DNA of 64,000 bases from Ectothiorhodospira lacustris (GTDB lineage: Bacteria; Pseudomonadota; Gammaproteobacteria; Ectothiorhodospirales; Ectothiorhodospiraceae), in contig NZ_JAJNQN010000009.1 of the NCBI RefSeq assembly GCF_022227845.1, positions 1 to 64,000 of the forward strand, written 5' to 3'. Positions 17,918 to 31,841 of the stretch are shown piece by piece. The notes beneath the pieces are model-generated. The model did no database searches, had not been told where the DNA came from, and saw nothing but the letters and a program-made list of their open reading frames with translations. Position 1 is the first letter of the stretch; every line of letters begins with the position of its first letter. The translations under genes were made by a program, and so were the position numbers.

Positions 17918-19075
17918 TCATTGAGGCACGACCTCCGACTCGACCACCAGGTCCAGCACGTAGATCGGCCCGTGCGGCATCTCTGAACCGTCAGCGGGTT
18001 CAAAGCGCTTGACACGCAACACGTTGCGGATGCCGGGTTCGTGCTGAAAACCCTCGATGTCTGCGGTGAAGGCCTGCCATTCGGAGGGTGTACCAGCCCG
18101 CAGTCCCCGCTCATCGAAGGTTTGCTCTCGCACCTGCAGGCACAGGCCGTCGCCTCGCATCGATGCCTCGCACGCCACCGCTTGCGGGGCAACCTCGAGA
18201 AAGACAGTCGTCGGGGCGCCGAACCGAGCCTCCGGGGTGAGTTCTCCCGTTAGCACCAGCGCATCGCCAGCCGGCGTGAGCAGAATCAGCCTGGGTTGCA
18301 CGCCGCGAACCACGACCGTCTCCAGCGGCTCTGCCATCAGCGCCGAAAGTGTCGCATCGGCTTCCATCAAGGGCGTTGCACAGGCCATCAGCGTGCCCAT
18401 CGTACCCGTCACTTCGAGCATGCCGTCGGCATCGGTCGCGAAGGCACCGCGAAATCCGTTGCAGCCGCCTTGCACGTGCAGATGCGATCCGGCGAAGTTG
18501 AACGCAAATGATCGTTCTGCCTCGACGAGCAGGGTGTCGATGCGCTGATTGGCAGCGTCGGTCGCATGGGCGAGTGTCCAGCGATGGTCCTCAAGAATGT
18601 CGCCTAGATTCTGCCGGGTACTGCGCCATTCCGGCCGCGACTGCGCGAGGGTCGCCTCGGCCCTGTCCCAAGCCGGCTGCGTCTGCCCGGTTTCGAGCAG
18701 CAGGAGACGACCCTCGCCTACGGCGTAGCGCTGTCCGGCTCCTTCGGCATCGAGCACAATGGTGTTGCCGTCAGGTTTCCATTCGAATTGTCCTCGTGCG
18801 GACGATGGCTCTGCGGCACGGACAAGTCGCCTTGTAACGATCTCAAAGCGGCCATCTGGTTCGAGTGTCAGTTGAGTGTGGATGCCGGCGCAGTCTGCGC
18901 AGGCCAGAAGGCCCTCGTACATTCCCGCCCAATCCAGCGCAACGCGGCTCGTGTGCATATCGATGACCGGGGCGGGGTCCTGCTCCGGGGACGGCGCTGC
19001 AGGAAGACTGGTGGTCTTGTCGGGTTGGCAACCCGCAACGGTGATCGCGAACAGGGCAAGCAGAAGGTATCGCAT
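17918..19075 (-). CDS. lipoprotein with NlpE-like, META and DUF4377-like domains
   Basis: A 385-residue envelope lipoprotein. The signal peptide ends in VAGC (Cys16). The NlpE-like part (about residues 50-150) has YEGLLACADCAGIHTQLTL, the CADC motif typical of copper-homeostasis/NlpE proteins. A META/HslJ-like domain (about 165-270) follows, with WTLAHATD and GGCNGFRGAF. The C-terminal 100 residues (VCLQVREQ-type pattern, here LCLQVREQTFDERG) resemble DUF4377. It starts 5 bases after the last Mrp-like gene, so it is the final gene of that operon. A role in sensing envelope stress is inferred. Confidence 0.85.
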   Translation of the reverse strand: MRYLLLALFAITVAGCQPDKTTSLPAAPSPEQDPAPVIDMHTSRVALDWAGMYEGLLACADCAGIHTQLTLEPDGRFEIVTRRLVRAAEPSSARGQFEWKPDGNTIVLDAEGAGQRYAVGEGRLLLLETGQTQPAWDRAEATLAQSRPEWRSTRQNLGDILEDHRWTLAHATDAANQRIDTLLVEAERSFAFNFAGSHLHVQGGCNGFRGAFATDADGMLEVTGTMGTLMACATPLMEADATLSALMAEPLETVVVRGVQPRLILLTPAGDALVLTGELTPEARFGAPTTVFLEVAPQAVACEASMRGDGLCLQVREQTFDERGLRAGTPSEWQAFTADIEGFQHEPGIRNVLRVKRFEPADGSEMPHGPIYVLDLVVESEVVPQ

Positions 19076-19080
19076 TGTCG

Positions 19081-20727
19081 TCAGACTCCTCTAAACAGTG
19101 TGGGGCCTGCAAAGAGCGCCGCCCCGATAAGAATGGTCAGCACCAGCAGCGACACACCCGCAGTGGGCCAGTCGCACAGGCGCCGTTCCACCCGCTCGAT
19201 CAGGTTTACGGTGACGCGGCCGGCGCGTGCGGTTCCGCTCCCCAACACCACGATATCACCCTCCGGCACGCGCGGCAGGACCCCACCGAAACGGCGCAGG
19301 GCGAGTACGAGGATGATACCCAGCATCACCGGCCAGGCGGCGACCCAGAGCGCCTTTAAGGTGAGACTCTGCGCAACGGTAACGCCCACAAGTGTGGTGG
19401 CCAACGCCCAGGGCAGGGCCACGGCCAGGAAGGCCATCAGTAGCCAGGGTACCAGCAGACCAGCCTTGGCCCTGGCAGTCGGGGACTCGGCGCGGGTGTC
19501 GGCGAGCCGGAACAGGAAATGCAGCATCAACAGGGTACTGCCTGCCGCCGCCACGGTGACGAGGATCACAACGAGCCCGTCCCCCAGCGGCGTCTTGGCG
19601 GCGAGTTTGGCCAGGGCGCCCCCCGTGAGCGGCAAACCGCCCAACGCGAGCGCCAATAACCCCGCGGGAAGCATCAGCGTCCAGGTGCGCCGCCCCCCCG
19701 AATGGGCGGCGACGCCGATGGCAAGGAACAGCGCCCCTTTCACCAGCACGTGGTGCGCGGCGAGGAAGGCGGCCGCCATGGCGGCCGTGGCATTGCCCGT
19801 CGCTAGACCCATGCCGAGAACCGCCGCCACGCCGCCCATCTGGCTTACGCTGGAGTAGGCCAGCACGGTCTTCGGGTTCTGCTGGGTGATGCCCACGAGC
19901 ACGGCGTAGAAGGCGGTCAGCAGCCCGATCACGGTCAGCGCCGTGCCCCAGCCGCTCAGGCCCGGGTCGAGAGGCAGGAACAGAATCAACCCGATCACGC
20001 CCGCCTTGATGATCGCGCCGCTCAGAACCGCCGAGGCCGGCATCGGGGCGGCTGGGTGTGCGATCGGTAGCCAGACGTGCAGAGGCAGCAGGCCTGCCTT
20101 CAAACCAAAGCCCGTGATCAGCAGCGCGACGATGTAATGCCGGGCGGGGTTTTCGGGCAGTGCCGCGACGACGTCCTGGATGGCAATGCTGTAACCCGGC
20201 GCATATGCGGCGAGCAGCGCGAAGGCGAGCAACAGGCAAACCTCCCCGAAGACCGCGAGGCCGATGTAGAGCACGCCGGCCCGGCGTGCCGCGCGGGTAT
20301 CGTCGTGCGCGACCAGGCCCCAGGCAGCCAGGCTCACGAGGGCAAAGGCGATGTAGAAGGTCAGCAGATCGCCCGCAACGAATACCCCAAGGCTGCCGCC
20401 CAGCGTCAGCAGCCACCACTGGGCAAAACGCCCGGCATTCGGATCCCGGCTCATGTAGCTTCGCGCATAGATCCCCGCGATCATCCAGAGCAGCGAGGCG
20501 GCGCCGAGCAGCACGGCTGCAACGGGATCAAGCGAAAAGGTCAGATTGAGGCGAGAATCGTCCAGCACCAGCGGTGCGGCGTCGTGGGCCAGCAGGGCTG
20601 CGGCCAGGCCGGGCAGCGGAGCCAGTCCGAGCAGCGCCAGCATGCGGGTGCGAACCCGCGGGGACAGGCAGGCCGCCAGCATCGCAAGCGGGACGGCCCA
20701 GGTGGCGATGAGCAGCGGGCCCTTCAC
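19081..20727 (-). CDS. mrpD2: Mrp antiporter subunit, MrpD/NuoN-like
   Basis: A proton-conducting membrane subunit of 548 residues, with about 14 hydrophobic helices and the NuoL/M/N core: LTFYIAFALVSLAAWGLVA, GLKAGLLPLHVWLPIAHPAAP (the conserved lysine and the HVWLP motif), and TVLAYSSVSQMGGV. It is a second, longer D-type subunit and may stand in for the N-terminal part of MrpA. The GTG start at 20727 overlaps the upstream stop as GTGA, implying coupled translation; the frame further upstream only shadows the preceding gene. The lipoprotein gene follows 5 bases after the stop. Confidence 0.88.
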   Translation of the reverse strand: MKGPLLIATWAVPLAMLAACLSPRVRTRMLALLGLAPLPGLAAALLAHDAAPLVLDDSRLNLTFSLDPVAAVLLGAASLLWMIAGIYARSYMSRDPNAGRFAQWWLLTLGGSLGVFVAGDLLTFYIAFALVSLAAWGLVAHDDTRAARRAGVLYIGLAVFGEVCLLLAFALLAAYAPGYSIAIQDVVAALPENPARHYIVALLITGFGLKAGLLPLHVWLPIAHPAAPMPASAVLSGAIIKAGVIGLILFLPLDPGLSGWGTALTVIGLLTAFYAVLVGITQQNPKTVLAYSSVSQMGGVAAVLGMGLATGNATAAMAAAFLAAHHVLVKGALFLAIGVAAHSGGRRTWTLMLPAGLLALALGGLPLTGGALAKLAAKTPLGDGLVVILVTVAAAGSTLLMLHFLFRLADTRAESPTARAKAGLLVPWLLMAFLAVALPWALATTLVGVTVAQSLTLKALWVAAWPVMLGIILVLALRRFGGVLPRVPEGDIVVLGSGTARAGRVTVNLIERVERRLCDWPTAGVSLLVLTILIGAALFAGPTLFRGV

Positions 20728-22208
20728 AGGCCGCGCCCGATGTGGACGATAGACAGGGAGGCCAGCGGCACCAGACCGACGCCGATCGAGAGTAGCGCGA
20801 GGCCGAGCACCAGCCGTTCCCCGCGCCGGTCCAGCGGGGAGCGCAGGCCCGGCGGCTCGTCCGACTGGGCCAGGGCACGGGAAAGCACGCGGAACAGGTA
20901 ACCGCCGGTCAGCAGTCCTCCCGACACGATGACCAGGACCCACCACCACTGCGCGCCCTCAATGGCGGCCCGCAACAACAACCACTTGGCCACGAAGCCG
21001 CCGCTTGGGGGCAGGCCCATGAGCGTGAAGCCGGCCAGCCCGAAGGCGAACACGGTTGTGGGCATTACGCGCCCGATGCTCCCCATATCCAGAATGCGGT
21101 CGTGTCCGATCGCCTTCGTGATCAGACCCGCCGCCAGACACATCGAGGCCTTGGCCAGCGCATGCGATACGGCTTGCAGTATCCCGCCCGTCCAGGCCGC
21201 GGTACCGAGTTGGGTGGCACTTGCCAGCGGGAAGGCCAGAAACAGGTAGCCCACCTGCGCCACCGTTGAATAGGCGATCAGCATCTTCAGTCGCGCCTGC
21301 CGCAGTGCAAGCGCACTTCCCACCAGGATCGCAGCCGCCCCCAGGGCCGCGAGCAGTTGGGCCGCCATCGGCGTCGCCACGCCGGGTAGCGCATCCACCC
21401 ACACTCGGATGATGAGTACGAAGGAGCCCTTCACCACCAGCCCCGAGATCAACGCGCTGGCGGCTGCCGGGGCACCGGCATGGGCGGCGGGCAGCCAGAT
21501 GTGTAGCGGGAACAGGGCGGTCTTCGTGAGCAGCCCCACGGTCATCAATGCGGCTGCCAACTGGGTCGCGGGTTCGACACGGACGCGCTCGGCGAGCAGG
21601 GCGATATCGAGCGTGCCGTAGGACCCGTAGAGCAGCGCCACGCCCAGCAGGAACAGGGCGGAGCCCAGCAGCGAGAAGAGGAGATAACGCAGGGCGGCGG
21701 TTAGGGCCTCCGCGCGTCCGCTCAGACTGACCAGCGGGACGGCACCGAGGGTGAGCAGTTCCAGTGCCACGAACAGGGTGAACAAGTCCGAAGCAAGAAA
21801 GACCGCGTTGAGTCCGGCCCAGACCGTCAGCAACAGAGTCCAGAACACCAGCGGTGCCCGGGTCTCAGGCATTCCACGTGGCACGCCGAAATCGGAACGG
21901 GCATAGAGTCCGGCCGCGCCGATCACGACCGCGGTGGTGGCCAGCATCACGATGGAGAGCCCGTCGGCACGTAGCAGCACACCCAGGGGAGGCGCCCACC
22001 CGCCCAGCACATATTCCAGTGCATCGCCGCGGCGAATCACGGTGGTGGCAATGGCGATGGCGACGCCGAGCCCGAGCGCAAGCAGCACGAGCCCGATCCG
22101 TTCCGCCTGCCGCCCCCCCAGTACCAGCAACAGCGGGATGCCGAGCACCGGCCCGAAGATCGCAAGGACCAGCAGTAAACCCTCGGGTGCCGCCATCACG
22201 GGACTCAT
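20724..22208 (-). CDS. mrpD: Mrp antiporter subunit D
   Basis: A 494-residue NuoN-like membrane subunit with about 14 helices. Core motifs are LFTLFVALELLTLGAVPLV (conserved membrane Glu), GLLTKTALFPLHIWLP, HAGAPAAASALISGLVVK, and MLIAYSTVAQVGYLF. These helices carry the protons exchanged for Na+ by multisubunit Mrp antiporters. ATG 22208 overlaps the mrpC stop as ATGA, and the GTG of the next gene overlaps its own stop as GTGA. Confidence 0.92.
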   Translation of the reverse strand: MSPVMAAPEGLLLVLAIFGPVLGIPLLLVLGGRQAERIGLVLLALGLGVAIAIATTVIRRGDALEYVLGGWAPPLGVLLRADGLSIVMLATTAVVIGAAGLYARSDFGVPRGMPETRAPLVFWTLLLTVWAGLNAVFLASDLFTLFVALELLTLGAVPLVSLSGRAEALTAALRYLLFSLLGSALFLLGVALLYGSYGTLDIALLAERVRVEPATQLAAALMTVGLLTKTALFPLHIWLPAAHAGAPAAASALISGLVVKGSFVLIIRVWVDALPGVATPMAAQLLAALGAAAILVGSALALRQARLKMLIAYSTVAQVGYLFLAFPLASATQLGTAAWTGGILQAVSHALAKASMCLAAGLITKAIGHDRILDMGSIGRVMPTTVFAFGLAGFTLMGLPPSGGFVAKWLLLRAAIEGAQWWWVLVIVSGGLLTGGYLFRVLSRALAQSDEPPGLRSPLDRRGERLVLGLALLSIGVGLVPLASLSIVHIGRGL

Positions 22209-22552
22209 GAATCACCGCCCTGGCCGTCGCTGGAGGCGGGCGGCTCGGGCCGCAGTGTCACCCGACCGGTCTCAGCGAACAGCCGGAGCATGATCGCCAC
22301 GGCGAGCGCGGTGCCCGCAAGGGCCATCATGATCGCGGTGATCACGAAGGCCTGGGGCACCGGATCCGCGGGGAACCAGGCTGCCGCACCCCGGCGGGCG
22401 ACCACGTCGAACACGAGGAACAGGCCACCACCCATAACGTTGAATGCAAGGATCTTGCGCAGCGGATGGGGCTGCACCAGAAGCCCGTAGAGACCCAGGC
22501 CCACCAGCGCGGCGCCGAGCAACCCATACAGAGAGGTGATGGTCAGTGTCAC
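22205..22552 (-). CDS. mrpC: Mrp antiporter subunit C (NuoK-like)
   Basis: A 115-residue protein with three membrane helices, similar in size to MrpC/MnhC and NuoK: SLYGLLGAALVGLGLYGLL, RKILAFNVMGGGLFLVF, and QAFVITAIMMALAGTALAVA. The GTG start at 22552 overlaps the upstream stop as GTGA. A longer upstream reading exists only as an overlap with the preceding gene. It is one of the invariant membrane subunits of the antiporter complex. Confidence 0.9.
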   Translation of the reverse strand: MTLTITSLYGLLGAALVGLGLYGLLVQPHPLRKILAFNVMGGGLFLVFDVVARRGAAAWFPADPVPQAFVITAIMMALAGTALAVAIMLRLFAETGRVTLRPEPPASSDGQGGDS

Positions 22553-23544
22553 CGTTCGCCCCGCTTCGCGTCTTGCGCTGTAGGCATGCCGGCCAGGGGC
22601 GGGGAGGGCGGTCGCGTGGGCGGCCCCTCCAGCAGCATGGCGAGCGTCACCGCCACCGTCAGCGTCATGGCCGAGTTGATCACGATGATGACCGGCCTTT
22701 CCCAGCCGGATGGGTAGGCGAGGAAGCCTTCGGCGAGTGCAAAGCCTGCGAACCCGGCAGTCAGAAACACGACCGGGCCCGACACCAGGGCAAGCCGCAG
22801 GGACAGGCGGCCGATCGCAGGTGCATCCACGAGGCCGGCCATGCGTGCGAGGATCCACATCGCCGCGAGGATCGCGCCGCCCTGGAAGGCGCCGCCCGGC
22901 TCATTGATGTCGTTCCACAGCAGGTAGATGCCGACCCCCACTGCGATCGGTGGCAGTAACCGGGCAAGAAATGTGAGTGCCTCGTTGTCCTGCCTTACGG
23001 GTGTCGGCCCGGGGCGTCCGCCCCACAGGGAATCCGGGGCCATGGACCAGACGGCCACCACCGCAATGAGCAGCACGACGTTCACCAGCAGCGTGTCGAT
23101 TGCCCGGTAGGCCATTAGTACCGCGGTGACCGGGTTGCCCACGCCCGTGGCGTGCAGGTTGTTGGCCGCGGCAGCCGGCGCCAGCGTGGGCGCAGGATCG
23201 GCCGGCATCAGCACCACGAGCGCGATCGCCGCCGAAACCGCGATGCAAAGCACGGCGATCAGCCCACGCAGGGCCGGGCCGGGGCGTTCCAGGATCGCGG
23301 CCCGCTCGCCGGCACGCATGCGCGTGGCGGCAGAGAGCAGCAGCACGCCGGTCATTGCGCCCACCGTTGCTGCGGTCAAGGCCACATCCACTGTGCCCAG
23401 GCGCACCCAGACCAAGCCCAGCAGCAGCCCGTAGGCGATAAAGCCCAGGGCTGCCGCAAAAGTGGCCTGCGCCACATGCGCCCGGATGGCGGCGGCCATG
23501 ATCAACACGACCAATCCGAACTCGATGGGCCCTGGACCGCTCAT
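22549..23544 (-). CDS. mrpB: Mrp antiporter subunit, DUF4040/MrpA C-terminal-MrpB fusion
   Basis: A 331-residue membrane protein joining a DUF4040/MbhD-like segment (residues 1-75, with YGLLLGLVWVRLGTVDVALT), an MbhE-like helix (about 90-115), and an MnhB domain. The MnhB part begins NPVTAVLMAYRAIDTLLVNV and contains the signature LWNDINEPGGAFQGGAILA (about 215-235). In many Mrp and Mbh complexes these are separate proteins or part of MrpA. ATG 23544 overlaps the stop of a 39-codon ORF as ATGA. No mrpE, mrpF or mrpG is found anywhere in the window. Confidence 0.88.
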   Translation of the reverse strand: MSGPGPIEFGLVVLIMAAAIRAHVAQATFAAALGFIAYGLLLGLVWVRLGTVDVALTAATVGAMTGVLLLSAATRMRAGERAAILERPGPALRGLIAVLCIAVSAAIALVVLMPADPAPTLAPAAAANNLHATGVGNPVTAVLMAYRAIDTLLVNVVLLIAVVAVWSMAPDSLWGGRPGPTPVRQDNEALTFLARLLPPIAVGVGIYLLWNDINEPGGAFQGGAILAAMWILARMAGLVDAPAIGRLSLRLALVSGPVVFLTAGFAGFALAEGFLAYPSGWERPVIIVINSAMTLTVAVTLAMLLEGPPTRPPSPPLAGMPTAQDAKRGER

Positions 23545-23660
23545 ACGCCGCCGGACCTCTGCCGCGCGAAACGTGCCGGCAGCTGGGCCACCGTGGCGCC
23601 CGCCAGTTGCACCAGGGACCAGATCACAGGCTTCTGTTGTACGGATAGACCGCGAAGCAT
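23541..23660 (-). CDS. 39-residue ORF coupled to mrpB
   Basis: A short frame starting ATG 23660 with a strong GGGGAGA ribosome site 5 bases upstream. It ends in TGA that overlaps the mrpB start as ATGA. The product begins MLRGLSVQQKPVIWSLVQLA and has a moderately hydrophobic middle and a basic end. No family recognised. It occupies the place where mrpE/F/G stand in related operons, so it may be a remnant, a leader that couples translation, or a small membrane subunit. Confidence 0.55.
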   Translation of the reverse strand: MLRGLSVQQKPVIWSLVQLAGATVAQLPARFARQRSGGV

Positions 23661-23676
23661 GTGAATCTCCCCTGCG

Positions 23677-24750
23677 TTATTGACTCAACATCCCGGTGCG
23701 ATAGGGGCTAATCACCATGCCGGCCTGTAGCCGGCCGACACCCGCGGAGACGATCCTCTGGCCACCGTGCAGCCCCTCCAGTACGACCACCGTGCCGTGG
23801 CTGGCCTCGCCCAGGGTCACCGGCTGGCGCTCGATCGCGTAGGTCTCCGGGTCGACCACCCAGACGAAAGCATCACCCGCCTCGGTTTCGCCCACCGCGC
23901 TCAGGGGAACACGTAATACGGGCCGGAGGTAGACGTTGGGGCGCGCGTAGACGGTCGCGGTCATACCGGGCAGCAGATTGATGTCCTCGGGCCGGTCGAT
24001 CGCCAGGGTCACCCGGAAGCTCTGGGTGACGGCGTCTGCTCGGGTGGCGATCTCGCTGACCCGGGCGGGAAACGCCCGGTCTGGGGCCGCGGTGAAGACG
24101 GCCTCGGCGACAGGCCTATCGCGCGGCAGTTCGCTCAAACGTCCCAACACCCGTTCGGGGAGATCGACGACCACCTCCAGCGCATCGGACGCCTCCAGCA
24201 GCAGCACCGGCTGGTCGGCCCGAACCCTCTGGTGGTTTTCGATCAGTGTGGCGGCGACGATGCCGTCGAAGGGGGCTGTGAGCGTTGCGTCCTCGAGGAT
24301 CTTGCGCGCCTGCGCGGTGCGCAGCGTCGCGATCTCGAACTCCGCCCGCTTCCGGTCCACTTCTGCCGGGGTCACCGGCGATACGGGCGACTCGGCCAGT
24401 CTCGAAAAGCGCAGGAAATCCGCTTTGGCAAGCGCCAGCCGGGCCTCCTCCAGGGCGACGCGATTTTTCAGGTCGCGCGGATCGAGCTGGGCCAGCAGTT
24501 CGCCGGTTGCGACCCGTTGCCCGGCGACCACCGGCCGTTCGCTCAGCAGCCCGGACACGGGAAAGGCCAGTTCCGAACGTCGGGTCGCCTGTACTCGCCC
24601 CGGCAGTTCCAGGATTTCCGCGTCAACCCCCACCACAAGTGTCTGCACCAGCGGTGCTCGCCCGGTCTCATCCAGGATGGTACGGGCGGCGGTCTGCGCC
24701 TGGGCCGTACCGACGTGCAGCAGTACCAACACCAGCAGGATCATTCTCAT
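23677..24750 (-). CDS. RND efflux periplasmic adaptor subunit
   Basis: A 357-residue membrane-fusion protein with a signal peptide (MRMILLVLVLLHVGTAQAQ), a barrel-sandwich hybrid split around a coiled coil (ELAFPVSGLLSERPVVAGQRV near residue 60; ATLTAPFDGIVAATLIENHQ near 150), a beta-barrel domain, and a membrane-proximal domain. It connects the inner-membrane pump to an outer-membrane channel; no TolC-type gene is present here. ATG 24750 has a GAGGAGGG site 4 bases upstream. The 39-codon ORF starts 16 bases after its stop. Confidence 0.9.
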   Translation of the reverse strand: MRMILLVLVLLHVGTAQAQTAARTILDETGRAPLVQTLVVGVDAEILELPGRVQATRRSELAFPVSGLLSERPVVAGQRVATGELLAQLDPRDLKNRVALEEARLALAKADFLRFSRLAESPVSPVTPAEVDRKRAEFEIATLRTAQARKILEDATLTAPFDGIVAATLIENHQRVRADQPVLLLEASDALEVVVDLPERVLGRLSELPRDRPVAEAVFTAAPDRAFPARVSEIATRADAVTQSFRVTLAIDRPEDINLLPGMTATVYARPNVYLRPVLRVPLSAVGETEAGDAFVWVVDPETYAIERQPVTLGEASHGTVVVLEGLHGGQRIVSAGVGRLQAGMVISPYRTGMLSQ

Positions 24751-24760
24751 GTTTCCCTCC

Positions 24761-27700
24761 TCAGGACGCCGGCACTGCGGGACTGGGGTCCGCGGACTCG
24801 TCCTCGGCGCGCGATGGCACCCGGTACAGGGTCGCGTACAGTACCGGCACCACGACCAGCGTGAGTACCGTGGCAAAGCTGAGGCCGCCGATGATCGTCA
24901 CCGCCATACCGACAAAGAAGGGATCCTGGAACAGGGGCAGCATGCCCAGCACCGTGGTGCCCGCGGCCATCACCACCGGTCGGATGCGGCTGACGCCGGC
25001 GTTGAGCACCGCATCCAGGGGGATCCTTCCTTCGCGCAGTTCCAGATTGATCTCGTCCATCAGCACGATGGCGTTCTTGATCAACATGCCGGACAGTGCG
25101 AGGAAGCCCAGCAGCGCCATGAAGCCGAACGGCTCGTTGGCCAGGAGAAGCCCTACGGTGACACCGATCACGGCGAGTGGCACGGTGAGCATGATCGCCA
25201 GCGGCTGGCGCAGGTTGTTGAACAGCAGCACCAGGATCAGGACCATCAGCAGCAGCGGCACCGGGATGCCGGCAGCGATGTAGCTCTGGGCACGGGCCGA
25301 GTCCTCGAACTCGCCGCCCCACTCCAGGCGGTAGTCTGGCGGGAGTTCCAGCGCGTCGATCTTGGGCTTGACCGCCGCCAGCAGGGTACTGGCCAGCTCG
25401 CCCGGAAAGGCATCGGCCCGCACTTCGATGGTGCGCACGCGATCGCGCCGCATGATGATCGGGTTGTCCCACGCCACCTCGAAACCGCTGACGACCTGCC
25501 GCAGTGGGATCGCCTGCTCGGCCACCGGGCTCCAGATCTGCACATCGCCGAGGCTGGCGACGTCTTGACGTTCGTCCTCCGGGGCCCGGGAGATGATGGG
25601 AATCAGGTCGTCGCCCTCACGATAGAAACCCACAGTGGTACCCTCGGTCGCGCGGTGCAGGGCGCGCGCCAGCTGCGGTCGGTCGATGCCCGTGCGCCGT
25701 GCCTGCGCCTCGGAGAACTGCGGCGCGAGTACCATCGTCTGCTGACGCCAGTCCGTGGTCGCGATCTGTGCCAGTCCGGAGTCGACGATGATCTGCTCGG
25801 CCTGAGCCGCCAGGTCGCGCAAGACCTGCGGATCCGGGCCGCTGAACCGCGCGCGGACCTTGAACGTACCGCCGGGCCCCAGCTGGAACAGATTCACGAC
25901 CGGCTCGCCGTTCGGCAGATTGTCCCGGATGAAGTCGTAGACATCGAGTGTGAGGTCATCGATCCTGCGCCGGTCATCCACCTCGACAATCAGCTGGCCG
26001 TAGCTGCGGTTGGGGTCCTCCGGCGTGTAGGTCAACTGGAAGCGCTGCGCGCCGCTGCCCACGAAGCTGGAGACGGCGACCACCTCTTCCCGGGACAGCA
26101 GGTAGTCCTCGATGACCTTCATGTCCCCTGAGGTGGCGTGGATGTCGGCTCCCTGCGGCAGGTAGTAATTGACCATGAATTGGGGCTGGGTCGATGGCGG
26201 GAAGAACCCTTCTCGAAGCATGCCAAAGCCAATGATCGCCAGGACGAGGAGACCAACCGTCGCCGCCAGGGTCAGGTAACGGACCCGGATGCAGAGCATC
26301 ACGAAGTTGCGATAGGTTCGGTAGAACCGGCTCTCGCCTCCGGAGGACACCTTTTCCGGTTTCAGGAACATGTGGCAGAGCAGCGGGGTGAGGGTCAGCG
26401 CCGTGATCCAGCTCAGCAGCAGCGAAACCAGCATCACCACGAACAGGGAGCGGGTGTACTCGCCGGTGTTGTCGGCGGAGAAACCGATCGGGACGAAGGC
26501 CAGCACCGCGATGCCGGTGGCACCGAGCAGGGGCATGGCCGTCTGCGCGATGATTTCCTTTGCAGCCTTGATCCGGTCCATGCCCCGGGTAATACGCACC
26601 AGGATTCCGTCCGTGACGACGATGGCGTTGTCCACCAGCATGCCCAGCGCGATGATCAGCGCACCCAGGGAGATGCGTTGCAGGGTGATGTCCAGCGCGT
26701 ACATCACGACCAGCGTGCCGAGGATGGTCACCAGGAGCACCACGCCGATGATGAGGCCGGAGCGCAGCCCCATGAACACCAGCAACACGACGATGACGAT
26801 GGCCACGGCCTGGGCGAGGCTGACGATGAAGTTGTTGATCGCCTCGGTCACCGCGCGGGCCTGGAAGGCGATCACGCCGATCTCCATGCCGACGGGGGTC
26901 AGCGGCGCAAGCTCCGCGAGCCGCTGTTCCACCAGTTCACCCATCACCACCACGTTCCCGCCCGAGACGGTGGAGATTCCCAGTCCGATCGCCGGCTTGC
27001 CGTTGAAGCGCATCAGGCTCGTGGGCGGATCCCGATAGCCGCGGGTCACCGTCGCCAGGTCGCGTACCCGGATCAGCCGCCCCTGGCCGGTTGGGTCCGG
27101 AATCAGTACATTGGAGATGGCCTCCACGGAATCGAATTCGCCGGTGGGCCGCACCGCGATCCGACTGCCTCCGACGCCGACCCGTCCGGCGTCGGTCACC
27201 GTATTCTGTTCGCCGATGGTCCGGTACACGAGTTCCAGCGGGATGCCTAGTTGGGCCATCCGGGTGCGTGAGACCTCAAGGAAGATGTGCTCGGGCTGAA
27301 CGCCGTTGAGCGCGACGCTCGCAACACCGGGGACTTGCAGCAGCTCGCGGCGCAGCAGGTCGGCGTAATCCTTCAGCGCCGAGTAGGTGTAGCCTTCCCC
27401 GGTGATGGCCAGGTACACGCCAAAGACATCCCCGAAGTTGTCGTTCACGATGGAGGGGAGTACCCCGGGCGGCAGGCGGGACTGAGCGTCGCCGACCTTG
27501 CGTCGGAGTTCGTCCCAGATCTGCGGCATCTCCGCGGCCGTATAGGCCTGCTGGATCTCCGGGGTGATGATGGACAGCCCGTCCGTGGACTGGGAGGTGA
27601 TGCGCCACAGCTGTGGCATCTGCTGGATCGCGGTTTCCAGCACGTCCGTCACCTCGCGCTGGACCTCCTCGGCGCTGGCCCCCGGATACAGGGTCACGAC

Positions 27701-27838
27701 CTTGGCCACCTTGATCGTGAACTCGGGATCCTCCAGCCGCCCCATGTTCTCGTAGGCGAAGATGCCGCCGCCGATGATCAGGAAGGTGATGAAGAGGACG
27801 ATGACCTTCTTGTGGATCGACAGCTCGGCGATGTTCAT
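24761..27838 (-). CDS. RND-family efflux pump, inner-membrane transporter
   Basis: A 1025-residue AcrB/HAE1-like transporter with twelve membrane helices in two halves and two large periplasmic loops. Visible motifs include the N-terminal ELSIHKKVIVLFITFLIIGG, the helix-4 proton-relay region LGMLVDNAIVVTDGI (about residues 400-414), and the matching FLALSGMLIKNAIVLMDEI in the second half (about 925-945). It expels small hydrophobic compounds using the proton gradient. It lies between two adaptor genes, with a 1-base gap after the upstream one. Substrate unknown. Confidence 0.95.
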   Translation of the reverse strand: MNIAELSIHKKVIVLFITFLIIGGGIFAYENMGRLEDPEFTIKVAKVVTLYPGASAEEVQREVTDVLETAIQQMPQLWRITSQSTDGLSIITPEIQQAYTAAEMPQIWDELRRKVGDAQSRLPPGVLPSIVNDNFGDVFGVYLAITGEGYTYSALKDYADLLRRELLQVPGVASVALNGVQPEHIFLEVSRTRMAQLGIPLELVYRTIGEQNTVTDAGRVGVGGSRIAVRPTGEFDSVEAISNVLIPDPTGQGRLIRVRDLATVTRGYRDPPTSLMRFNGKPAIGLGISTVSGGNVVVMGELVEQRLAELAPLTPVGMEIGVIAFQARAVTEAINNFIVSLAQAVAIVIVVLLVFMGLRSGLIIGVVLLVTILGTLVVMYALDITLQRISLGALIIALGMLVDNAIVVTDGILVRITRGMDRIKAAKEIIAQTAMPLLGATGIAVLAFVPIGFSADNTGEYTRSLFVVMLVSLLLSWITALTLTPLLCHMFLKPEKVSSGGESRFYRTYRNFVMLCIRVRYLTLAATVGLLVLAIIGFGMLREGFFPPSTQPQFMVNYYLPQGADIHATSGDMKVIEDYLLSREEVVAVSSFVGSGAQRFQLTYTPEDPNRSYGQLIVEVDDRRRIDDLTLDVYDFIRDNLPNGEPVVNLFQLGPGGTFKVRARFSGPDPQVLRDLAAQAEQIIVDSGLAQIATTDWRQQTMVLAPQFSEAQARRTGIDRPQLARALHRATEGTTVGFYREGDDLIPIISRAPEDERQDVASLGDVQIWSPVAEQAIPLRQVVSGFEVAWDNPIIMRRDRVRTIEVRADAFPGELASTLLAAVKPKIDALELPPDYRLEWGGEFEDSARAQSYIAAGIPVPLLLMVLILVLLFNNLRQPLAIMLTVPLAVIGVTVGLLLANEPFGFMALLGFLALSGMLIKNAIVLMDEINLELREGRIPLDAVLNAGVSRIRPVVMAAGTTVLGMLPLFQDPFFVGMAVTIIGGLSFATVLTLVVVPVLYATLYRVPSRAEDESADPSPAVPAS

Positions 27839-27839
27839 C

Positions 27840-28976
27840 TCAGTCCCTCATCCGCACTTGCTCGCCGTCGGCGAGATAGGCGGCACCCGCGGTGACGACC
27901 CGGTCACCCTCCGACAGGCCCTCCAGTACCTGCACCGTACGGCCGCTCAGGCCCCCGATCCGCACGGACCTTCGCTGCACCGTGGACTGCTCAGGGTCCA
28001 GCAGCCAGACGAAGGCACTGCGATCGGATGTGGCCTGCAGCGCCTCCACCGGGAGAAAGTACATGGAACGGATCCCTACCACCGCGTCATGGGGCACGAA
28101 GCTCGCACTCATGCCGGGGAGGATGTTGGCCCCCTCCGGCGGGGGCAGACTGAGGACCACACGGTAGGTGTTGGTGCGGGGGTCGGCGCGCGTCTCCAAC
28201 TCCTTCACCGAGACCGGGAACCGTCGCCCCGGCAGCACGTCGAAGCTGACCGTGCCGACCTCCGTGCCGAGCAGGGACCGGCCGGCGGGCAGCCGCACCA
28301 CGTCGAGTTCCGGTAGCTGGATTCGAACCTCGAGTCGACTGATGTCTTCGAGTAGCAGCACGGGCTCGCCGGCCTGCACGGTCTGGAAATTTTCGACGAG
28401 GCGGCGGGCAACGCGGCCCGGGAACGGGGCCAGGAGTTCGGTATCCTCCAGGCGCTTTTGCGCCAGCGCCAGCTCGGCATCGGCTACCTGGAAGCGCGCA
28501 CGGGACTGGTCCCGCTCCGCCGCCGTCACCACCCCGGCTGCAAAGGCCCTCTCGATGCGGTCGAACCGGGACCGGGCCTCGTTCCGATCCGCCCGACGCC
28601 CGTCGCGCTCGTTCACGAAATCGCGGGGATCGATCCGGGCCAGCAGTGTTCCCGCCTCCACGAACTGCCCCTCCTGGATGGGGAGGTCGACCAGCGGCCC
28701 GGAGACGATGAAGGCGAGTTCGGCACGCTGATCGGCGCGCACCTCACCGGGAAACTGTCGGCGTGCCGGCAGTTCGGCAGGCCCCAGCAGTACCGAATCC
28801 ACTAATCGCGGAGACAGACCCGTCACATCCTCGGGTCGACCTCCGCAGGCGGCAAGCAAGACCAGTGCCGCGAGCGCTGGAACCAGAGCCCATCTGCCCC
28901 GCCGGGAGGTGCCCGGGACCTGGCCATGGGCCGGAGTGAATCCGACGATTCGCCACCATACCGAACGCAAGCGCAC
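27840..28976 (-). CDS. RND efflux periplasmic adaptor lipoprotein
   Basis: A second adaptor of 378 residues, with a lipobox in ALVLLAACGG. It has a barrel-sandwich hybrid (ELAFIVSGPLVDLPIQEGQFV; ELLAPFPGRVARRLVENFQ), a coiled-coil hairpin rich in Arg/Glu, and beta-barrel and membrane-proximal domains. GTG 28976 is chosen because AAGGAG lies 6 bases upstream. It is the first gene of a probable nine-gene operon running to 17918. Two adaptors for one RND gene suggest a heteromeric adaptor, as in Triclosan/TriABC-type pumps (inference). Confidence 0.9.
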   Translation of the reverse strand: MRLRSVWWRIVGFTPAHGQVPGTSRRGRWALVPALAALVLLAACGGRPEDVTGLSPRLVDSVLLGPAELPARRQFPGEVRADQRAELAFIVSGPLVDLPIQEGQFVEAGTLLARIDPRDFVNERDGRRADRNEARSRFDRIERAFAAGVVTAAERDQSRARFQVADAELALAQKRLEDTELLAPFPGRVARRLVENFQTVQAGEPVLLLEDISRLEVRIQLPELDVVRLPAGRSLLGTEVGTVSFDVLPGRRFPVSVKELETRADPRTNTYRVVLSLPPPEGANILPGMSASFVPHDAVVGIRSMYFLPVEALQATSDRSAFVWLLDPEQSTVQRRSVRIGGLSGRTVQVLEGLSEGDRVVTAGAAYLADGEQVRMRD

Positions 28977-29304
28977 AGCACACTCCTTCGGCCCACCGAG
29001 CGGTTTTTCCCTTTCCGGAATGTCGCACAACCGGTGCCGCAATGGTAGCCACCTGATCCACAAAATTGCCCGTTCTGCGCCACGGTTATACAGCGGTAAA
29101 ACACCAGGGATCTGACCACCTTTATCCCGGTACGATCGCCCTTCGAAAGGGTTTTTCCGCCCCTGGGCAGGGATCGCTCAGCAATGCATCCGGGACATGA
29201 ACCACAGGTGAGTGTCGACCCGGTCCAGTTTTATGTGTTCGACGCTAGACATGGCCCCCATGTTGCGGTATTAGCCGGAACATGGGGGCCAAGGGAGACT
29301 TCGG
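28977..29304. promoter_or_regulatory. divergent intergenic region between RND operon and patatin gene
   Basis: About 330 bases separate divergent genes and must contain both promoters. The patatin start is preceded by AAGGGAGA at 6 bases. No clear repressor operator or adjacent regulator gene is visible. Confidence 0.5.
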
Positions 29305-30399
29305 ATGAATAAGGCCGGGAAGGATGTAAGGACAGTGGATCTCGCCTTGCAGGGAGGCGGCGCTCACGGCGCACTGACCTGGGGGGTGCTGGACCGGCTC
29401 TTGGCGGATGAGCGAATCGAGATCGCCGCCATCAGCGGCACCAGCGCGGGCGCCATGAACGCGGTGGTCATGGCCGATGGCCTGGATCAGGGGGGGCGCG
29501 AGGGCGCGCGGGAGGCCCTTGCCGGGTTCTGGAAGGCGGTCAGCGACGCGGCACGATTCTCTCCGATACAGCGGTCCGCCTGGGACCGGATGACCAACCG
29601 CTATAGCCTGGATCACTCGCCCGGTTACCTGTTCTTCGAGCAGCTCACCCGGCAGTTCTCGCCCTACGAACTGAATCCTCTGAACATTAATCCACTGCGC
29701 GAACTCGTCGCTTCACAGGTGGATTTCGAACGGGTCAACCACTGCAAGGCCCTCAAGGTCTTCGTGACCGCCACCAATGTGCGCACCGGGCGCGGCCGCA
29801 CCTTCACCCAGCCGAATCTCACGGTCGATGCGGTGATGGCATCCGCCTGCTTGCCCTTCATGTACCAGGCCGTGGAGATCGACGGTGAGGCTTATTGGGA
29901 CGGTGGCTATATCGGGAATCCCGCGCTCTATCCGCTGGTCGAGGATCGCGCCACACGCGATCTGATCGTGGTTCAGATCAATCCACTGGTAAGAGAGGAA
30001 CTGCCGCGCACCGGTCGCGAGATCATCAACCGGCTCAACGAGATTACCTTCAACGCCAGCCTGATCAAGGAACTGCGCTCCATCGAGCTCCTGCACCAGT
30101 TGATAGAGGTGGAGCGACTCGAATCCGAGCGTTACCGCGACATCTACCTGCATCTGATCCATGCCCACGAAGAGCTCAAGAATCTGGATGCCTCAAGCAA
30201 GATGAACGCTGAATGGGACTACCTGACGCACCTCAAGGAACGCGGCCAGGCTTGGGCCGAGGGCTTCCTCAAGCGCCATTTCGATGATCTGGGCAAGCGT
30301 TCCACCTTCGATCTGAAGGGCCTTTTTACCGACAGCTTTGCGCCACCTAGCCTCGACGCATCTGCGTCATCCGACCAGCCAACGGAGCCGAAGCCATGA
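29305..30399 (+). CDS. patatin-like phospholipase
   Basis: A 364-residue serine lipid hydrolase. The patatin motifs are all present: the glycine-rich anion hole LQGGGAHGA (about residues 15-23), the nucleophile elbow ISGTSAG (Ser in G-x-S-x-G, about 43-49), and the catalytic Asp in DGGYIGNP (about 198-205). No signal peptide is seen. The stop overlaps the start of the GntP permease as ATGA. Patatins of this group are often placed near polyhydroxybutyrate metabolism genes, and a phasin occurs in this window, so an intracellular polymer or lipid role is possible (inference). Confidence 0.92.
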   Translation: MNKAGKDVRTVDLALQGGGAHGALTWGVLDRLLADERIEIAAISGTSAGAMNAVVMADGLDQGGREGAREALAGFWKAVSDAARFSPIQRSAWDRMTNRYSLDHSPGYLFFEQLTRQFSPYELNPLNINPLRELVASQVDFERVNHCKALKVFVTATNVRTGRGRTFTQPNLTVDAVMASACLPFMYQAVEIDGEAYWDGGYIGNPALYPLVEDRATRDLIVVQINPLVREELPRTGREIINRLNEITFNASLIKELRSIELLHQLIEVERLESERYRDIYLHLIHAHEELKNLDASSKMNAEWDYLTHLKERGQAWAEGFLKRHFDDLGKRSTFDLKGLFTDSFAPPSLDASASSDQPTEPKP

Positions 30400-31841
30400 T
30401 GGGGATCCTGGTTATCGTCATCGCACTGGGCCTGCTGATGTACCTGGCCTACCGGGGCGTCAGCCTCCTGATCCTCGCGCCGGCGCTGGCCACCTTCGCA
30501 GTGGTGGCAACGATGGACGGCCCGGTGCTGGCGAGTTACACACAGATTTTCATGGGTTCGGCCGGTGGCTTCATCACACTGTATTTCCCCGTATTTCTCC
30601 TCGGCGCCGTGTTCGGCAAGTTGATGGAGGACTCGGGCTGCGCCCGGGTCCTCGCCGACGCCATCATCGCCAAGCTGGGCAGCGGCCAGGCGATCCTGGC
30701 CGTGGTCCTGTCCTGCGCCGTCATGACCTACGGCGGGGTGTCCTTGTTCGTGGTGGCCTTTGCGGTTTACCCGATTGCGGCGGCCCTGTTCCGGCAGGCC
30801 GACATCCCCAAACGGTTGATTCCCGCAACCATCGCTTTGGGTGCCTTCACCTTCACCATGACTGCGCTGCCGGGTACGCCCGCCATCCAGAATGCCATCC
30901 CGATGCCTTTCTTCGGCACCTCTCCCTTCGCGGCCCCGGGGCTGGGCATCATCACGGCGCTGGTGATGTTCGTCCTCGGCATGTCCTGGCTCAAGTACCG
31001 CGCGCACAAGCTGGCCTCGGAAGGCTACGGCAACCACCCGGATGCGGAATTCGTCCCGAACAAGGACTTGCGGGAACGCTCGGCGGGTGAGGGTTTCGAC
31101 CTGATGGAGCTCCCGGTGGCGGACCCCCCGGTGAGCCGGCCACCGGTATTCGTCGCCGTCCTGCCGCTGGTGCTGGTGATTGCGATCAACCTGTTGTTCA
31201 CTTTCGTGATCATCCCGAACATGGATACGGACTTCCTGGCCCTGCCGCTGTACGGTGAGACCAGCATTGAGGAGGTGCGTGGGATCTGGTCGGTGGTTGC
31301 GGCCCTGGTGCTGTCCCTGCTGGTGGTGATCGCCATGAACTGGAAGCGGTTGCCCAAGCTCACGCAGTCCGTCGACAACGGTGCCAACGCCTCACTGCTG
31401 CCGATCTTCAATACCGCAAGCCTGGTGGGTTTTGGTGCCGTGATCGCCTCGCTGGGCGCCTTCGTGCTGATTCGTGATGCGGTGGTTGGTCTCGGGGGCG
31501 ACAATCCGCTGATCTCGCTTGCGATTGCGGTGAACGTGCTGGCGGGAATGACCGGGTCGGCCTCGGGGGGGATGAGTATCGCGCTGTCGACCCTCGGCGA
31601 TACCTATCTGGAGATGGCTTACGCCCAGGGGATCAACCCGGAGTTGCTGCATCGTGTCACGGCAGTGGCCACCGGCGGACTGGATACGCTGCCGCACAAC
31701 GGCGCGGTCATCACCCTGCTCGCAATCACCGGGCTCACGCACCGGCAGGCCTATTTCGATCTGGCGATGGCCGCGATGGTGGCGCCCTTCCTCTCGCTGA
31801 TTGTGCTGATTACGTTGGGGACGCTGTTCGGGAGTTTCTGA
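30396..31841 (+). CDS. GntP-family permease
   Basis: A 481-residue inner-membrane transporter with about twelve helices. Features typical of the gluconate:H+ symporter (GntP) family include MTYGGVSLFVVAFAVYPIA, FTMTALPGTPAIQNAIP and LAGMTGSASGGMSIAL. Members import gluconate or 3-hydroxybutyrate-like acids. The 4-base overlap with the patatin gene indicates coupled expression, which points to a hydroxy acid released by that hydrolase as substrate (inference). The stop codon directly abuts that of the convergent hydrolase gene. Confidence 0.9.
   Translation: MMGILVIVIALGLLMYLAYRGVSLLILAPALATFAVVATMDGPVLASYTQIFMGSAGGFITLYFPVFLLGAVFGKLMEDSGCARVLADAIIAKLGSGQAILAVVLSCAVMTYGGVSLFVVAFAVYPIAAALFRQADIPKRLIPATIALGAFTFTMTALPGTPAIQNAIPMPFFGTSPFAAPGLGIITALVMFVLGMSWLKYRAHKLASEGYGNHPDAEFVPNKDLRERSAGEGFDLMELPVADPPVSRPPVFVAVLPLVLVIAINLLFTFVIIPNMDTDFLALPLYGETSIEEVRGIWSVVAALVLSLLVVIAMNWKRLPKLTQSVDNGANASLLPIFNTASLVGFGAVIASLGAFVLIRDAVVGLGGDNPLISLAIAVNVLAGMTGSASGGMSIALSTLGDTYLEMAYAQGINPELLHRVTAVATGGLDTLPHNGAVITLLAITGLTHRQAYFDLAMAAMVAPFLSLIVLITLGTLFGSF

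Follow-up and report, generated by a model that had tools for sequence, protein, structure and literature searches.

A reduced Mrp-type antiporter next to an RND efflux pump in Ectothiorhodospira lacustris

Why are the genes of an RND efflux pump followed, on the same strand and with gaps of at most 16 bases, by those of an Mrp-type antiporter from which several subunits are missing? The question is raised by positions 17,918 to 28,976 of a 64,000-nucleotide stretch of Ectothiorhodospira lacustris, a salt-loving purple bacterium (contig NZ_JAJNQN010000009.1, positions 1 to 64,000; the whole stretch is hereafter called the window). There, a run of minus-strand genes leads from the pump (the adaptor MFP1, the RND permease and a second adaptor, MFP2) to four Mrp-related subunits, named AB, C, D1 and D2. 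The answer favoured here, with moderate confidence, is that a proton-path remnant of Mrp is maintained beside the pump, its sodium half having been dismantled, and that this remnant would no longer carry out canonical Na+/H+ exchange.

Losses from the proposed sodium path

The preliminary description of the window had stated that the Mrp part lacks E, F and G. This holds as far as function is concerned, but a remnant of G is present and had been counted as the ninth gene of the run. It consists of an open reading frame (ORF) of 39 amino acids (23541..23660), situated between MFP2 and AB, which is the position of G, adjoining AB, in the relatives. When compared with 27 MrpG proteins of related loci, it reached z >4 over shuffles for 25 of them, the exceptions being those of loci L162 (0.6) and L065 (3.4), and none of 1511 open 39-amino-acid stretches of the window scored as high against MrpG. 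The best six-frame match of the MrpG of L122 in the whole 64 kb was the same ORF (tblastn, E 4.5e-4, 67% over 21 amino acids). Judged from these matches and from its position, the ORF is an mrpG fossil keeping the last transmembrane helix only. Two other identities were rejected: a new small protein, since the ORF matches MrpG, and a piece of E or F, since no score rose above those of shuffles. Two loci of E. shaposhnikovii were available for comparison, L045 (genome G007) and L044 (genome G008, strain beta1); the stump is kept in the former (75% over 36 amino acids) and absent from the latter. As for MrpE and MrpF, no credible match was found in the window with the proteins of the relatives (tblastn; lowest E-value among the matches listed, 0.034). 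Both are missing from all three Ectothiorhodospira loci, and their loss therefore seems to predate the split of the three.

The eLife paper on the structure of the A. flavithermus Mrp assigns the H+ path to MrpA-N and MrpD and the Na+ path to MrpB, C, E, F, G and MrpA-C, names three essential carboxylates of MrpA-C (E706, D792 and E796) and equates the position of E706 with E69 of MbhD (PMC7419157). In the window, AB (22549..23544) corresponds to the C-terminal part of MrpA (MbhD, MbhE-like) fused to MnhB, with Pfam matches to MbhD and MnhB. According to the alignment, the E706-equivalent is Ala in the AB of the window and Gln in both E. shaposhnikovii proteins; outside Ectothiorhodospira it is Glu in 26 out of 26 usable rows (locus L041, whose alignment is unusable at that position, was left out of the count). 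At the E796-equivalent the window has Val, against Glu in all 27 rows from outside Ectothiorhodospira, and at the D792-equivalent it has Asp. Both E. shaposhnikovii proteins have a deletion at these two positions, which were mapped from the R-x-x-D-x-x-x-E spacing and from the alignment to 6u8y_E, a less direct mapping than that of E706. Both E. shaposhnikovii AB genes also miss ~180 codons in frame: the MnhB domain is gone and only MbhD is recognised. With E, F, most of G and the E706- and E796-equivalent glutamates lost, and MnhB as well in E. shaposhnikovii, the sodium cycling that had been suggested for this copy is unsupported.

Could the missing subunits be supplied from elsewhere in the cell? 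A complete E-F-G-B-C-D-D-D set lies at G000:C33 (L041), in the same genome as the window, and AB, C, D1 and D2 might assemble with its E, F and G and still exchange Na+. We regard this as very unlikely: C33 is of a distant type with three D subunits, its AB, C and D proteins being 32-50% identical to those of the window, and complementation in trans would leave the loss of the E706- and E796-equivalents and of MnhB unexplained. The three-D Mrp at C33 could itself perform ordinary antiport, which would have freed the window copy.

Constraint on the proton-path subunits

Downstream of AB follow C (22205..22552), a MrpC/NuoK-like subunit with a Pfam Oxidored_q2 domain, and two antiporter-like subunits, D1 (20724..22208; Proton_antipo_M, 189 bits), of MrpD type, and D2 (19081..20727; start codon GTG; Proton_antipo_M, 122 bits). 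D1 keeps every key residue of MrpD, namely the Glu of transmembrane helix (TM) 5 and the Lys of TM7, TM8 and TM12. The TM5 Glu of D2 is Ala in the window and was replaced by Ala, Ser or Thr in 28 out of 28 D2 rows (L065 being excluded from them); D2 probably stands in the place of MrpA-N. C has no paired histidines, here or across its whole subfamily. As both characters extend throughout, the D2 without TM5 Glu and the C without histidines are old features of the family. For comparison, antiport in B. pseudofirmus was lost on changing MrpA-E140, MrpA-E780 or MrpD-E137 to alanine, and MrpE was reported not to be needed for ion transport by B. subtilis (PMC5703873). The TM5 Glu that D2 lacks is thus essential in the MrpA of B. 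pseudofirmus.

Selection was assessed from the ratio of nonsynonymous to synonymous substitution rates (dN/dS). For AB, the ratio was 0.58 and 0.66 between the window and the two E. shaposhnikovii, and 0.32 between the E. shaposhnikovii pair. The three Ectothiorhodospira pairs gave 0.31-0.45 for C, 0.26-0.29 for D1, 0.21-0.25 for D2 and 0.06-0.10 for the RND permease, to be set against 0.10-0.26 for AB, 0.04-0.14 for C, 0.09-0.28 for D1 and 0.10-0.35 for D2 in pairs of other loci (the AB pair L150-L156 was left out). D1 and D2 are thus under purifying selection, which is relaxed in AB and, to some extent, in C. The constraint on D1 and D2 after a loss of E and F common to the three genomes speaks for a kept function of these two subunits.

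A different account of the same data would be an eroding relic, in which function was lost with E, F and G, AB is decaying with C, D1 and D2 to follow, and the frames are open only by virtue of the pump operon and of the recency of the loss. The AB ratio of ~0.6 in the window pairs and the range found for C fit such a decay, as does the progression of losses from the fossil G to its full removal in L044 and the deletion of MnhB. We nonetheless hold it to be unlikely, albeit well worth considering, given that the frames of D1 and D2 are uninterrupted in three genomes and D1 has kept all its key residues, that their ratios (0.21-0.29) are far below 1 in all three pairwise comparisons, and that the absence of E and F at all three loci makes their loss look older than the split.

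The RND pump as a neighbour of two-D Mrp loci

Among ten same-genus genomes searched, this AB was found at high identity in only three, the genome of the window (G000) and the two of E. shaposhnikovii (G007 and G008). In both of the latter, pump and Mrp genes stand in the same order as in the window, so that the survey for this gene order, proposed in the preliminary description, located it in two further genomes. Searches with AB provided 25 related loci in other Pseudomonadota, whose hosts are presumably Alphaproteobacteria: 18 have two D subunits (L121-L123, L146-L156 and L163-L166) and seven have a third one. By sample, AB-positive genomes numbered 4/398 for the phylum (own genome included), 6/150 and 7/150 in overlapping order samples, 17/119 in one family and 1/385 class-wide; on account of this last figure, this type of Mrp is considered rare. 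A search of plasmids gave no match to AB. The 18 two-D loci carry the E-F-G-AB-C-D1-D2 type, F being undetected at some of them by the search used.

At these two-D loci, an RND gene with an adaptor was present in 15 out of 18 of the 20-kb stretches as fetched, and within ~20 kb in 17 out of 18 once further flank was added, the remaining locus, L148, being cut by a contig end. No RND pump was seen at the seven three-D loci in unextended stretches, and extra flank of four of them also showed none; in the family counts, further flank was included at five of the two-D loci but at no three-D locus. The chance expectation is ~1.94 of 18, for loci that are related by descent and hence not independent. 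Seen from the pump, the picture differs: of 49 loci with relatives of the window RND, Mrp genes lie nearby only in L044, L045 and L065. A link specific to the RND clade of the window was rejected on this count, the association following the Mrp side. The same low figure would suit the notion of chance neighbours caught in one operon, which we judge extremely improbable in view of the 17 out of 18 loci observed on the Mrp side against about two expected. The earlier proposal that pump and Mrp belong together is accordingly supported, both by these loci and by the order shared with E. shaposhnikovii.

The placement of the pump relative to the two-D Mrp varies, with upstream and downstream positions and same-strand, divergent and convergent orientations all represented. 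L165 and L166 have a same-strand run MFP-RND-E-F-G-AB-C-D1-D2, with ~100-130 bases between pump and E. Other genes recur as well: the patatin family is found at 13 of the 18 two-D loci and at one of the seven three-D loci, and GntP-like homologues at eight of the 18. Such variable orders and orientations with lasting proximity, together with the frequency of patatin, are what would be expected if pump and Mrp were only co-regulated, answering the same stress (pH, salt or membrane) within an island that also holds patatin and GntP genes and having no energetic or physical link. Co-regulation is a tentative possibility, to which we give clearly less than even weight; alone, it does not explain why only the H+ half was kept here, and it does not conflict with what the remnant explanation proposes on evolution.

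In the window, the patatin-like phospholipase gene (29305..30399, plus strand; Pfam Patatin) is the divergent neighbour of MFP1 and is paired with the gene of a GntP-like permease (30396..31841, plus strand; a weak GntP_permease match of 21.2 bits against a cut-off of 22.5). Patatin and GntP-like genes near Mrp/RND were observed in the window (29305-31841) and at L121, L122, L146, L152-L154, L163 and L164. At L121 a phasin gene adjoins E; a link of the phasin/patatin neighbourhood with polyhydroxybutyrate is speculation.

Regarding ancestry, the tree of D1 places the window within the two-D clade (22 rows, support 100/99), closest to the group of L123 and L065 (96/91). At L065, which comes from an uncultured bacterium, the set E-F-G-AB-C-D1 and an RND gene of the broader type of the window converge. 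The D1 and RND frames overlap each other there (L065:13057-14880), no D2 is present and D1 lacks the TM8 Lys. A sister relationship of the window and L065 RNDs was rejected (quick tree without bootstrap, long branches flagged), and L065 may for this reason be an independent pairing or a product of chance. In the same quick tree, with the same caveats, the window RND falls outside the TriC-like clade of the pumps at two-D loci. As a whole, comparison of the loci indicates that the Ectothiorhodospira operon derives from a conserved arrangement of RND pump and Mrp. A two-D Mrp (E-F-G-AB-C-D1-D2) would have been gained, probably by horizontal transfer, in the ancestry of this Ectothiorhodospira group, whose pump is a different RND of the MexK/TriC superclade, provided with two adaptors.

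The pump, the run and known systems

The pump genes are MFP1 (27840..28976) and MFP2 (23677..24750, start ATG at 24750), both periplasmic adaptors with HlyD_3 and RND_mfp matches, and the RND permease (24761..27838; ACR_tran, 538 bits). The best PDB sequence matches of the permease are MexK 9xwg (650 bits), followed by 6vej (601 bits), recorded as a probable RND efflux transporter and which we take to be TriC; the RND of the two-D locus L123 gave 1191 bits to 6vej and 963 to MexK, and is thus TriC-like. The window RND carries Asp-Asn in TM4 and Lys in TM10 (AcrB numbering by motif), and in the aligned rows of its clade the TM4 Asp is present in 50/50, the TM4 Asn in 49/50 and the TM10 Lys in 49/50. 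Asp-Asn rather than Asp-Asp in TM4 typifies this clade (loci L044-L091), the lone exception being a TriC-like control. No outer-membrane channel gene was found on the contig of the window; OEP domain matches elsewhere in the same genome number 12 and are candidate channels available to the pump. Nearly all RND pumps studied so far are driven by protons, and one by sodium (Chem Rev 2021, PMC8277102).

With starts and stops recomputed, the genes from MFP1 onwards are spaced by 1, 10 and 16 bases, then overlap four times by 4 bases, and 5 bases separate the last two. The nine tightly packed minus-strand frames first described were hereby borne out, each large gene being supported by Pfam, and such spacing suggests transcription as one unit. 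A consensus scan revealed no promoter-like site on the minus strand, which is weak evidence in either direction. The last gene (17918..19075) codes for a lipoprotein with Pfam matches to NlpE, META and DUF4377, and has no match at L044 or L045. Between the divergent patatin and MFP1 genes lies an inverted repeat of 17 nt (94%, 6-nt spacer; 29252-29291), partly conserved in E. shaposhnikovii and a possible operator or terminator. In E. shaposhnikovii beta1, a frame of 687 amino acids, read as a lipoprotein-like hydrolase (L044:6730-8793), separates patatin from MFP1; in L045 and the window these two genes are just a short gap apart.

How might the remnant have arisen and what might it do? Where a two-D Mrp is complete, it might adjust ion gradients locally for the RND pump beside it. 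The sodium half of the Ectothiorhodospira Mrp has been taken apart by loss of E and F, reduction of G to one helix and replacement of two MrpA-C glutamates, removal of the MnhB domain being a further step in E. shaposhnikovii, and the proton-path D1 and D2 with the NuoK-like C have stayed open and intact. Presumably no longer exchanging Na+ for H+ canonically, D1, D2 and C with the MbhD part would most likely act as a membrane proton module, for regulated H+ entry or a local H+ relay, which would serve the pump or the pH balance of the cytoplasm when the external pH is high. Several observations weigh against this proposal. Slow erosion would also account for the somewhat relaxed C (0.31-0.45 vs. 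0.04-0.14 at other loci) and for the ratios of D1, which are near the top of the range seen there (0.26-0.29 vs. 0.09-0.28); the AB ratio of 0.32 between the E. shaposhnikovii pair shows that AB is not free of constraint. As the TM5 Glu of D2 and the paired histidines of C are absent throughout, the canonical Mrp mechanism may not have applied to this family from the outset, and in most two-D loci the RND gene is not in one run with Mrp, being divergent, convergent or kilobases off.

The gene neighbourhood points to a possible functional coupling of pump and Mrp. In its strongest form, the RND pump and the two-D Mrp would be one functional unit, reduced in Ectothiorhodospira to a sodium-independent MbhD-C-D1-D2 proton module that feeds or gates protons for the pump. 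This stronger version we consider improbable; if true, an efflux pump would be energised via a borrowed complex-I-type proton path. More generally, from the conserved neighbourhood it would seem that certain RND pumps operate together with ion-handling machinery dedicated to them. Structures and point mutants are the basis of the bipartite model of Mrp, in which H+ is handled by A-N/D and Na+ by B, C, E, F, G and A-C. The stepwise loss of the proposed Na+ half, with the proposed H+ half under selection, offers a natural test of ion coupling in Mrp and complex I, since it lets one ask by direct experiment if the proton half functions by itself, and to what end. In the open-access literature, represented mostly by titles and the beginnings of abstracts, no report was found of an Mrp-RND operon link, of RND pumps with ion-handling machinery of their own or of such stepwise Mrp loss, nor any paper joining Mrp with RND or TriABC.

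Compared with the Mrp antiporters (CPA3, MrpABCDEFG), the window has the MrpA C-terminal (MbhD), B, C and D modules, a D1 with the Glu/Lys axis and a G remnant, but it lacks E and F, its G is cut to one helix, its MrpA-C glutamates are replaced, and a separate D2 without TM5 Glu takes the place of MrpA-N. With the membrane arm of complex I and of membrane-bound hydrogenase (NuoJ-K-L-M-N; MbhD-G-H), the MbhD-C-D1-D2 set of E. shaposhnikovii shares the appearance of a J-K-M-L proton module without E, F and G, whereas the operon has neither NuoH nor a redox partner. In TriABC-OpmH of Pseudomonas aeruginosa, too, a single operon encodes two adaptors and an RND of the TriC/MexK superclade; in the window, the adaptors flank the RND gene, the RND belongs to a separate clade (601 bits to 6vej vs. 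1191 for that of L123) and the pump is joined to an Mrp operon. Finally, the 18 two-D loci share with the window the same AB-C-D1-D2 subfamily, an RND pump and often patatin and GntP genes, and differ from it by the presence of E, G and a usually detected F, by a TriC-like RND and by genes that mostly do not form one run.

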